This document shows, one piece after another, positions 16,554 to 19,834 of a stretch of DNA of 64,000 bases; positions within the stretch are counted from its first letter, which is position 1; each line of letters starts with the position of its first letter. The notes under the pieces are model-generated. The model was not told where the DNA came from and searched no databases. It saw only the letters and a program-made list of their open reading frames with translations. The DNA is from Gemmatimonadota bacterium. Lineage in GTDB: Bacteria > Gemmatimonadota > Gemmatimonadetes > Longimicrobiales > Gaopeijiaceae. The DNA is taken from contig VXMI01000173.1 of assembly GCA_009841165.1 (NCBI GenBank), forward strand, positions 1-64,000, read 5' to 3'. The position numbers and the translations under genes were made by a program.

Positions 16554-17147
16554 CTACATCTCCCTTCGGCCCGCCAGGGCCTCGGCGATGGTCGTCCCGT
16601 CAACGTATTCCAGATCGCTGCCCACGGGAATGCCTCTGGCCAGCCGCGTAATGCGCACTTCCCGGGGCCGCAGGATGCGTTCCAGATACACGGCCGTGGC
16701 CTCACCCTCCACACTCGCGTTGGTCGCGAGGATCACCTCCCTCGCGGGCGTCCCGGCACCCTCCAGCCGCTCGATCAGGCCAGCGATGTTGAGTTTCTCG
16801 GGACCGATCCCGTCCAGCGGGGAAAGACGGCCACCCAGCACATGAAAGAGCCCCTTGTATCGGCCCGCGCGCTCGATCGCTCCGACCTCATAGGCTTCCT
16901 CGACGACGCAGATGACCTCCTGGTCCCTCGACGGGTCCTGACATACCCGGCACAGCTCCGCCTCACAGTAGTTGCCGCATCTGGGACACGGATGCACTCG
17001 GTCGGCCACGTCCTCGAGCGCGCGTGCCAGCCGCCGCGTATCACCCTTGGCCCCCTTTACCAGATGGTACGCAAGGCGCAATGCCGTCTTGGTACCCACG
17101 CCCGGAAGCCTTCCGAGTTCGCGCGTGAGATTCCCGATCGCCGACAC
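16554..17147 (-). CDS. recR: recombination mediator RecR
   Basis: RecR loads RecA at gaps with RecF and RecO. The protein has an N-terminal helix-hairpin-helix (LPGVGTKTALRLAYHL), a four-cysteine zinc finger at C54, C57, C66 and C69, and a Toprim domain with EEAYEVGAIE and ATNASVEGEAT. Length 197 aa is normal. It lies directly after ybaB in the usual dnaX-ybaB-recR order. Confidence 0.97.
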   Translation of the reverse strand: MSAIGNLTRELGRLPGVGTKTALRLAYHLVKGAKGDTRRLARALEDVADRVHPCPRCGNYCEAELCRVCQDPSRDQEVICVVEEAYEVGAIERAGRYKGLFHVLGGRLSPLDGIGPEKLNIAGLIERLEGAGTPAREVILATNASVEGEATAVYLERILRPREVRITRLARGIPVGSDLEYVDGTTIAEALAGRREM

Positions 17148-17164: not shown

Positions 17165-17482
17165 TCAGAAGAGTCCCGGGAGCTGCACCGGAAACCCTCC
17201 CGCAGCGCTCCGCATGCGTTCTTCCGAAAAGGTGCGGGCACGATGCTGCGCCTCGGCCACTGCGGCGACCACAAGGTCCTCGAGCATCTCCACATCCTCC
17301 GGGTCGACCACTTCGGGCTCGATCGACACGCCGACCAGATCGCCCTTGCCCGTCACGCGCGCCCTGACCATCCCCCCTCCCGCCGAGGCCTCGATCTGCT
17401 CGCTGTCGAGACTGTCCTGCAGCTCCTTCACCTTCGCCTGCAGCTGCTGTCCCATCTTCATGAGTTGCTGAATGTTCGTCAT
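17165..17482 (-). CDS. YbaB/EbfC family nucleoid-associated protein
   Basis: A 105-residue protein starting MTNIQQLMKMGQQLQ, with a Gln/Met-rich helix, then ASAGGGMVRARVTGKGDLV and a VEMLEDLVVAAVAEA helix, all typical of YbaB, a dimeric DNA-binding protein. The start at 17482 is set by this conserved opening; an upstream ATG would add 26 unrelated residues. It sits between dnaX (34 nt upstream) and recR (17 nt downstream). Confidence 0.93.
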   Translation of the reverse strand: MTNIQQLMKMGQQLQAKVKELQDSLDSEQIEASAGGGMVRARVTGKGDLVGVSIEPEVVDPEDVEMLEDLVVAAVAEAQHRARTFSEERMRSAAGGFPVQLPGLF

Positions 17483-17516
17483 TGTGCGTTCTCGTTGCTG
17501 TGGTCCCGGGCTTCCG

Positions 17517-19145
17517 TCAGTCAACCAGCTCCAGGTCCAGTTCCCTGACCGCCCGATCAATGACGGGCGCGCGGTCGATCAAGTCCTGCAAACGGTCTCG
17601 GCGGACCGTTTCCCTCGTAACCCTCTCCGCTGTCGGCGAACCATCGGCCGGTTCGCTCGCGAATAGAATCTTGGCAGATTCGCGCCTGGCATGAAGGGCC
17701 AGTCCTTCTTCGAGCCTCCGGCGGATCGACTTGTCTCCGAGCCGCCCGGACACAAGGTCCTTGCCAACCTCCAGTATCAGGGCTTCACCGTCTTCCCTGG
17801 CTTTCACACCACGCAGAATGCTGGCAAGCCCGCGAGGCAGGCGCGGTCCGTCGTTGAGCAGCTCCCTCCAGGCGTCGGCCAGACGGCGCGGAGCGGACTG
17901 CGCCGTTCTCGGAGCCTCGGCTGAGGAGGAGGGCACCGGGTCGCGGGACACCGGAGCCGCCGTTGGGGCGGCCGGAGCCGGCACCCTTTCTGGTGCTCCC
18001 CCGAGAGCCCGAATAACGTCCTCGAGCTCGACCGTCCTGTCGAGATAGCTCATGCGCAGAAGCAACACTTCGACCAGCACCCGCGGACGGCCTGTCCGCC
18101 GGAGGCTGCCGTCCGCTTCCAGCGAGGAGCACATGGCGAGCATGCGCACGAGATCGCCCGGGGCGAAGGCGGCCGCGCGCTGTGCAAACGCATCCCGCAG
18201 TTGGGCTCCCATCACCCCGGGGGCGGCCTCCGGGTCCACCGCCATGCGCAACAGGAGCCTGAGCTTCTCCGTCAGGCCGTGGTAGAATTCGACCAGGTCG
18301 TACCCCTCGTCGATCAGGGTCTCGACAAAGTCGAAGACAGCCCCGTGCCGCTTCCCGATGATGATGTCCAGGACCTCCAGGTACCGTTCCTCGGCGACGA
18401 CACCCAGCACTTGGACCACCGACTCGACGGACACCTCTTCGTCCGATAGCGCCAGCACCTGGTCCAGGAGCGAGAGCCCATCGCGCATCCCCCCGTTCGC
18501 CTTTCGCGCGATCGCCCGAAGCGCCTCCCGGTCGAACGCGATTCCCTCGGTCGCCAATACCTGCTGCAAACGCTCGACAATGTCGTCGGCGCCGATCCGC
18601 CTGAAGTCGAACCGCTGGCACCGCGAAAGGATCGGCGAGGCACTCTGCTCGATCCGGCGAGGCTCCGTGGTGGCGAAACAGAAGATCACGCGCGGAGGCG
18701 GCTCCTCGAGGATCTTCAGCAGCGCGTTCCACGCCTCGCGCGTGAGCATATGGGCTTCGTCGAGGATGTAGACCTTGAAGCGGCCCTCGTCCGACGGAGC
18801 GTACATCGCGCGCTGTCTCAGGTCGCGGGCGTCCTCGACGCCCCTGTTGGAGGCGGCGTCGATCTCGACCACATCGAGTGAAGTGTGGCCGCCCCATATG
18901 CGTTCGCAGTTGTCGCAGCGTCCACACGGCTCGCCCTCGGGCGTCCGGTCGGCGCAATTCAGCGACATCGCGAGAATCCGCGCAACGGTCGTCTTGCCCA
19001 CGCCGCGGGGCCCACAGAAGAGGTAGGCGTGCCCCACGCGGTCACCGGCCACGGCCCGCTTTAGCGTCTCGGACACGTGCTCCTGTGTGGACACCTCACC
19101 GAAATGGCGGGGACGGTACTTCCGGGCTAGGGCAAGATAGGACAA
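17517..19145 (-). CDS. dnaX: DNA polymerase III subunits gamma/tau
   Basis: Clamp-loader ATPase. The conserved opening SYLALARKYRPRHF follows a TTG at 19143-19145, which I take as the start (542 aa); no strong Shine-Dalgarno is seen. Walker A is GPRGVGKT at 45-52, the zinc knuckle is CGRCDNC preceded by a further Cys, and DEAHMLT plus the ATTEP sensor follow. The C-terminal third is Ala/Pro-rich and then a tau-like tail. A frame running 45 codons further upstream overlaps the SRP RNA gene and is not conserved, so it was dropped. No tau/gamma frameshift site was evaluated. Confidence 0.94.
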   Translation of the reverse strand: MSYLALARKYRPRHFGEVSTQEHVSETLKRAVAGDRVGHAYLFCGPRGVGKTTVARILAMSLNCADRTPEGEPCGRCDNCERIWGGHTSLDVVEIDAASNRGVEDARDLRQRAMYAPSDEGRFKVYILDEAHMLTREAWNALLKILEEPPPRVIFCFATTEPRRIEQSASPILSRCQRFDFRRIGADDIVERLQQVLATEGIAFDREALRAIARKANGGMRDGLSLLDQVLALSDEEVSVESVVQVLGVVAEERYLEVLDIIIGKRHGAVFDFVETLIDEGYDLVEFYHGLTEKLRLLLRMAVDPEAAPGVMGAQLRDAFAQRAAAFAPGDLVRMLAMCSSLEADGSLRRTGRPRVLVEVLLLRMSYLDRTVELEDVIRALGGAPERVPAPAAPTAAPVSRDPVPSSSAEAPRTAQSAPRRLADAWRELLNDGPRLPRGLASILRGVKAREDGEALILEVGKDLVSGRLGDKSIRRRLEEGLALHARRESAKILFASEPADGSPTAERVTRETVRRDRLQDLIDRAPVIDRAVRELDLELVD

Positions 19146-19174: not shown

Positions 19175-19285
19175 GCCGCAGTGCCCCAGGCGCTCCACGG
19201 CGACGGTCACCACACTTACCGCTGCTACCTGCGGGGTCCTGACGGGGTTCATGAGCTTCCGACCCGCGGACCTGGGGCACGCAGC
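19175..19285 (-). ncRNA. ffs: signal recognition particle RNA (small bacterial 4.5S type)
   Basis: On the minus strand, a perfect 10-bp helix pairs GTGCCCCAGG (19271-19280) with CCTGGGGCAC (19181-19190), extended by 5 bp with one bulge to 19285/19175. Inside are the SRP signature AACCCCGTCAGG and AGCAGCGGTAAG (plus-strand complements at 19238-19249 and about 19215-19226), which form the SRP54-binding symmetric loop. The apical part between them is 11 nt (19227-19237), ACC-CCGCA-GGT, instead of the usual UCC-GGAA-GGA. Location just upstream of dnaX is common for ffs. Its presence explains why the extended dnaX frame is not real. It would form SRP with Ffh. Confidence 0.88.
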
Positions 19286-19312: not shown

Positions 19313-19690
19313 TCAACCGGGGCGCCAGGCATCCGGTATGTGCTGTATTTCGACCTCCTCTCCGATGATTCTCACCCCGACCGCATCGAACCGATAGGTC
19401 GTGCCGGCCCTGCCGTGCTCATGGATCCACCTTCTTGCGGCCGACACGACCGTCCTCCGCTTGGATCTTCCGATGGGTTCCAGCGGAGTGCCCCCCGAAG
19501 AGGTCGTGCGCGTTTTCACCTCCACGAACGCGACGACCCGGCCCCTGCGAACCACCAGATCGATTTCCATCGACCCGGCGCGGTAGTTACGTGCCAGCAC
19601 CGTCCAGCCTCGCGACCGCAGATGGGCTGCCGCGATCGCCTCCCCCCTGCGCCCGTGCACCCACCCGTTTCTTCCGGTCCTCGGTCTCAT
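19313..19690 (-). CDS. UPF0102 (YraN) family protein, endonuclease-like
   Basis: A 125-residue protein with GRRGEAIAAAHLRSRGWTVLARNYR, then EIDLVVRRGRVVAFVEVKTR, the E-x-D-(x)n-E-V-K core of the PD-(D/E)XK-like YraN family. Function in the cell is not established. The ATG at 19690 is chosen because the conserved part begins a few residues later; a further 38 upstream codons look unconserved. The ribosome binding site is poor. The 144 nt between this gene and the DAHP synthase gene show nothing recognisable. Confidence 0.85.
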   Translation of the reverse strand: MRPRTGRNGWVHGRRGEAIAAAHLRSRGWTVLARNYRAGSMEIDLVVRRGRVVAFVEVKTRTTSSGGTPLEPIGRSKRRTVVSAARRWIHEHGRAGTTYRFDAVGVRIIGEEVEIQHIPDAWRPG

Positions 19691-19834
19691 GGCCGACAAG
19701 GTGGCGAGGTCCCGCGGGCGTTGGAATGGCCGGATGAGACGCGTCGGAAACAGGTGTTTGTGCGACCGGGACGGAGTCAACCACGACGACTCCGGCCACC
19801 GCACGAAACGGCCCGGCCCCTACTCCGGCGGGGG

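Follow-up and report, generated by a model that had tools for sequence, protein, structure and literature searches.

The SRP RNA takes part in the delivery of bacterial proteins to the membrane and nearly always ends in a four-base loop of the GGAA type. This loop is treated as a near-invariant receptor-capturing switch and is under exploration as an antibiotic target; in E. coli, it catches FtsY as the early complex of SRP and receptor forms. In the stretch of Gemmatimonadota DNA analyzed here (64,000 nucleotides, referred to as the window), an SRP RNA-like hairpin carries the five bases CCGCA where this loop is expected. This raises the question of whether the departure is real and, if it is, whether the receptor could still be engaged by such a loop.

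Identity and reality of the five-base loop

The RNA in question (ffs) was identified with cmscan as a match to the bacterial SRP RNA model RF00169 at 19181–19277 on the minus strand (37.7 bits, E 7.9e-7). The alignment spans the full model (1–97) and contains one extra base in the loop compared with the GGAA consensus. This is the sole RF00169 match in the 4.27 Mb assembly at E≤0.001, and hence the assembly holds no better SRP RNA elsewhere; the earlier note on this DNA had named such a better copy as a finding that would refute it. A scan of the whole window against Rfam at the gathering threshold returned only a tRNA and did not report the SRP RNA, solely because 37.7 bits falls below the curated RF00169 gathering score of 40 bits. 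That score is a curation cut-off and not a biological feature; it is passed by 13 of 59 relatives, including one locus (L007) with an identical CCGCA loop that reaches 41.3 bits.

On the minus strand, the RNA reads CCCGUCAGGACC-CCGCA-GGUAGCAGCGG, with the core GUCAGG-ACC-CCGCA-GGU-AGCAGC. With its basal helix GUGCCCCAGG/CCUGGGGCAC counted in, the hairpin occupies 19178–19282 on this strand, as supported by RF00169, by covariation, and by a custom covariance model (R1) that matches the window at the same positions with 112.6 bits, the sequence itself being among those used to train R1. The symmetric internal loop is present, with CAGG on its 5′ side (19238–19241, minus strand), which is the SRP54/Ffh M-domain binding site, and AGCA, as part of AGCAGC, on its 3′ side (19223–19226, minus strand), both placed from the sequence and the RF00169 alignment. 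Thus, the Ffh-binding part of this SRP RNA is standard, and the helix and intact SRP54-binding loop that had been reported from the sequence are borne out. Above it, on the same strand, the apical stem is formed by ACC (19235–19237) and GGU (19227–19229), and the loop CCGCA (19230–19234) lies at the usual place of the GGAA tetraloop, so the reading of 19227–19237 as ACC-CCGCA-GGU also stands. The apical GNRA/GGAA tetraloop is absent, and for this reason we call the RNA a variant; it is a variant SRP RNA and not a new RNA. Such a tetraloop is usual for the family without defining it, since the SRP RNA of Physcomitrella patens is accepted with a loop of 10 nucleotides.

The gene neighborhood is consistent with this identification. 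Directly downstream of the SRP RNA lies dnaX, encoding DNA polymerase III gamma/tau (17517–19142, minus strand; TIGR02397, 386.9 bits); its open reading frame extends to 19280, with homology beginning only at residue 47. It is followed on the minus strand by ybaB/ebfC (17165–17560; TIGR00103, 67.7 bits) and recR (16554–17147; TIGR00615, 227.6 bits). Upstream, at 19313–19804 on the minus strand, is a yraN-family gene (NF009154, 106.4 bits, just below the cut-off of 109). The minus-strand order is therefore smc, MBL-fold hydrolase, DAHP synthase, yraN, SRP RNA, dnaX, ybaB, recR, which makes the placement “upstream of dnaX” correct and adds the strand that the earlier note had not given. The protein partners are likewise encoded in the genome, in the form of two SRP54-domain genes, ffh (TIGR00959, 566 bits) and ftsY (TIGR00064, 318.5 bits).

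The simplest way to dismiss the loop would be to regard it as a sequencing error, or to suppose that the RNA is a degenerate copy and that the genuine SRP RNA lies elsewhere, and the score below the Rfam gathering cut-off could be taken in that direction. Against this stands the fact that the genome's only RF00169 match is the feature with the pentaloop, as well as the evidence from 43 relatives of the same genus, family, and order, which were found by RF00169 search and whose loci were then read. All 43 share the same architecture, their loops have five bases that fit N-Y-G-M-M, and GGAA occurs in none of the 43. The loops are CCGCA (23), GUGAA (6), UCGCC (5), UUGCC (3), and CCGCC (2), with GUGCA, GCGCA, CUGCA, and CUGCC found once each. 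Recurrence of CCGCA in separately assembled genomes (20 whose stem is ACC/GGU and another 3 whose stem is GCC/GGC) refutes a read error in the apical region. The aligned 43 sequences form one helix of 32 pairs in which 97.7% of the cells are paired, compared with 32–42% in slid controls of the same alignment. Two-sided compensatory changes are found in 15 of the 32 pairs, a number matched by none of 500 shuffles, and they support the helix; they extend to the apical stem, which pairs in all 43 and changes from A-U to G-C in four genomes. The artefact reading is refuted, and we give it virtually no weight.

Distribution and sequence constraint of the loop

The same loop was followed across the phylum, with families coded f1 to f11 and f11 being a sister class. 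Model R1 found an SRP RNA in 130 of the 149 genomes of the class; 60 of its matches and ten further loci were read for their loop sequence, and a search with the core pattern covered 395 genomes of the phylum. Among the matches listed, which are phylogenetically clustered and give a tally, not a prevalence estimate, 219 Gemmatimonadota genomes comprise 180 with pentaloops (14 sequences) and 39 with tetraloops (6 sequences). In f1–f4 and f10, every genome read has a pentaloop. Family f7 has mostly CCGAA, along with GAAA, GAGA, and one GGAA, and in f6 the pentaloops CCGCA, UCGCC, UUGCC, GUGAA, and GUGCA are mixed with the tetraloops UAAC, UAGC, GGAA, GAGA, and GGCA. GGAA is kept in f5, in f8, and in the sister class. 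As judged from these sequences, the pentaloop is a feature of the class Gemmatimonadetes, not of a single genome. Within f6, tetraloops of the UMAC/URRC type take the place of GGAA in some genomes, for example UAAC at L143 (G074) and UAGC at L138 (G144).

Beyond the phylum, the earlier note's view that such a loop is unusual among bacteria holds for the phyla sampled. In 299 Pseudomonadota genomes, about 150 places among the matches listed read GGAA with the exception of a handful, and no pentaloop recurs; for Bacteroidota, a looser pattern, which admits more chance matches, was applied to 396 genomes, and there GGAA is the recurring loop and again no pentaloop recurs. A scan of named genomes led, among the matches listed, to Gemmatimonadota as the named records with the pentaloop pattern. 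Pattern matches in Azospirillum, Paraburkholderia, Pseudomonas, Mesorhizobium, Ruegeria, Pontibacter, and two MAGs (one Chloroflexi, one Frankiaceae) were put down to chance, as the model matched at none of the sites; the true SRP RNAs of these genomes have tetraloops, GGAA or GAGA, and that of Paraburkholderia reads UCG-GGAA-CGA. A record titled Gammaproteobacteria (SB0675_bin_31, VYDD01000073.1; L232/L335) contains a Gemmatimonadota-type SRP RNA with a GUGCA loop (99.9 bits with R1), which is probably explained by mislabelling of the MAG or by faulty binning. Separately, RF00169 matches the Pseudomonas graminis genome at two sites (L328 and L336, G408 contig C46; 75.4 and 31.8 bits) that lie some 12 kb from each other, and the second of these may be a decayed duplicate.

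The bases of the pentaloop are not free to vary. Among the 180 pentaloops in the matches listed, position 3 is always G, position 2 is always C or U, and position 4 is A or C, with one U. The first and fifth bases combine as C-A (110), U-C (36), G-A (28), or U-A or C-C (6), such that the first three combinations account for 174 of the 180, and the first and fourth bases of the 39 tetraloops listed are only G-A (33) or U-C (6). Over 26 family-by-loop combinations, which are not fully independent, U at position 1 is coupled with C at position 5 (Fisher p 0.0018). In the sequences read, then, the conserved pentaloop consensus is N1-Y2-G3-M4-M5. This constraint bears on the suggestion that selection has been relaxed and that a loop that no longer matters is drifting. 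The 14 pentaloop and 6 tetraloop sequences found in one class, among the matches listed, would fit such drift; the fixed G3 and the pyrimidine at position 2 would not, and neither would the recurrence of the 1-5 coupling in separate families or the restriction of all SRP matches read to loop lengths of four or five, no other length having been seen among them. Drift of this kind is already disfavored, and we regard it as improbable.

An FtsY tree built from E. coli and 36 genomes, which is only partly resolved and does not tell gain from loss, calls for a minimum of seven shifts between the two loop lengths. Mapped in this way, the loop has alternated several times within the class between four bases and five, with the FtsY contact residues unchanged.

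Two groups of genomes depart further from the ordinary pattern. In f3, a family of the same order with large genomes that is probably Longimicrobiaceae, the SRP RNA scores only 22–26 bits with RF00169 (L114, L115) and sits in a tRNA array, ending directly 5′ of tRNA-Val(CAC), not at dnaX. Four loci from f3 and the group of two related named MAGs (L114, 1497–1579, minus strand; L115, 1513–1595, plus; L221, 804–888, minus; L272, 3602–3684, plus) have in common an RNA of about 80 nucleotides composed of a short Ffh-binding hairpin followed by a second hairpin. The first of these keeps CCGCA and shows compensatory stem changes, and the long helix (helix 5) of the ordinary SRP RNA is absent from all four. 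If processed there, the 3′ end of this RNA would come from RNase P cleavage of tRNA-Val. No better-scoring conventional copy was found at E≤0.1 in G038 and G042, the two f3 genomes with matches, which are incomplete drafts. One could imagine a sweeping account in which the class exchanged the near-universal GNRA tetraloop for an NYGMM loop family with its own receptor-docking geometry and f3, in addition, pared its SRP RNA down to one short hairpin for Ffh binding and a second one made as the tRNA-Val 5′ leader, dispensing with the long helix and the distal GTPase-activation site; we consider this combination unlikely.

The second group is f9, in which the SRP RNA was sought in genomes G088, G090, G094, G100, G116, G130, G148, and G169, some of them single-contig. 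In the f9 genomes tested, none was detected by RF00169 at E≤0.1, by model R1, or by the core pattern, and an FtsY match at E≤1e-60 was likewise not found in G088 and G094. The SRP components of f9 may be very divergent.

Receptor residues and a putative GNRA-like fold

If the pentaloop is real and conserved, the receptor might be expected to bear on how it is used. Contacts with the tetraloop have been reported for FtsY residues K399, R402, K405, and K406 (PMC11404819) and for the surroundings of S362, F365, D366, and V403 (PMC6059433). Alignment of 37 FtsY proteins shows no variation at K399 or V403; R402 is arginine in 35 (with one threonine and one lysine), position 365 is phenylalanine or tyrosine in all, and position 406 is mostly lysine or arginine; hence, the patch comprising K399, R402, V403, F365, and K406 is conserved whatever the loop. 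The K405 position is occupied by A, G, R, S, T, or K, is unconserved in tetraloop genomes as well, and thus represents a part of the E. coli contact patch that is not conserved. No position in the inspected FtsY stretches of these 37 proteins separates tetraloop from pentaloop genomes, a comparison that can show only the absence of change. On the Ffh side, the M-domain motif RRKRIA-GSG...VNRL is kept. A loss of the GNRA function, as might be read from the earlier note, is not supported: the pentaloop is conserved throughout the class, it begins and ends with bases that obey the G-A/U-C code of the tetraloops in this lineage, and the FtsY residues reported to touch the tetraloop are unchanged.

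We therefore turn to how five bases might serve in the place of four. Solved structures include GNRA-like pentaloops in which one base is looped out, with insertions at four positions and several of them protein-bound, and UMAC loops that mimic GNRA (PMC12550061). By analogy, the pentaloop probably makes a U-turn like that of GNRA, from which one of the five bases would be looped out; a closing 1-5 pair of the G-A, C-A, or U-C type would replace the 1-4 pair of the GNRA and UMAC tetraloops. Two registers can be envisioned. If base 4 loops out, the arrangement G-Y-G-(M)-A would be of the GNR(N)A type and a purine would stay at the R position; if base 2 does so instead, G-(Y)-G-M-A would be of the G(Y)GNA type, which would be the simplest insertion into GGAA or GGCA. 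If the GNRA-like fold is kept, the proposal is that the pentaloop would therefore still take hold of FtsY when SRP and receptor first come together, in the manner of the E. coli GGAA loop. The 1-5 code, as tallied among the matches listed, is compatible with such a fold, which would have a sheared-type 1-5 pair and a stacked 3′ side. The commonest combination, C-A, is no standard GNRA or UMAC closing pair, and the majority of loops with C1 and A5 are thus the weak point of this reading.

That weakness, together with the C at position 4 of many loops, makes for a poor GNRA fit and invites the view that the pentaloop is not GNRA-like, with FtsY docking in a different manner (backbone charge or a looped-out base might serve, for instance) or needing the loop less for fast assembly. 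The loss of K405 could be read similarly, as could the chloroplast SRP RNA of Physcomitrella patens, whose 10-nucleotide loop coexists with SRP54 and lowers its affinity (PMC5115805). However, positions 2 and 3 and the 1-5 combination are strongly constrained, and the loops have repeatedly been swapped with tetraloops of the GNRA and UMAC types while the FtsY contact surface stayed the same. We hold this second view to be a minority possibility. The reading we favor, and consider probable as a whole, is that the feature is a functional 4.5S-type SRP RNA of this Gemmatimonadota bacterium, normal except for a loop that gained one base, in which the extra base would be looped out of a fold that otherwise stays GNRA-like and FtsY would still be docked.

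A class in which loop length toggles several times while the receptor surface remains unchanged amounts to a natural mutagenesis series, one that says what FtsY needs (for example the combination of first and last bases) versus what it does not (length, or the exact GGAA). On the practical side, covariance models built on GGAA under-score the SRP RNAs of a large environmental phylum.

Comparison with known systems

Bacterial SRP RNA has been described with a conserved tetraloop (PMC5115805, PMC7775534), and we found no report in the open-access literature of a bacterial clade with a conserved SRP RNA pentaloop. In most respects, the RNA resembles RF00169 and E. coli 4.5S RNA: it is a single hairpin with a CAGG/AGCA symmetric loop and an A-containing asymmetric region before it, and it lies upstream of dnaX. 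It differs from them in its NYGMM loop in place of GGAA, in its ACC/GGU stem in place of UCC/GGA, and in a score around or below the cut-off. With the GNRA-like pentaloops (those of phage boxB RNAs, CRISPR RNA, and others; PMC12550061) it shares the five bases, the purine at position 3, the 1-5 G-A combination in the GYGMA subset, and the alternation with GNRA tetraloops in relatives. The described examples include no SRP RNA, and the loops here are mostly C1-A5 or U1-C5. UMAC tetraloops offer a further parallel, in that UAAC occupies the identical SRP RNA position in f6 and has the same outer bases, U and C, as the U-C pentaloops, although the pentaloop is one base longer and has G at position 3. 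Finally, the P. patens chloroplast RNA is also an SRP RNA without a GNRA tetraloop, and there the much longer apical loop accompanies weak SRP54 binding in a degenerating system (PMC5115805). In contrast, the Gemmatimonadota loop is under tight constraint in both length and sequence, and with Ffh, FtsY, and the RNA all present, no component of the system seems to be missing.
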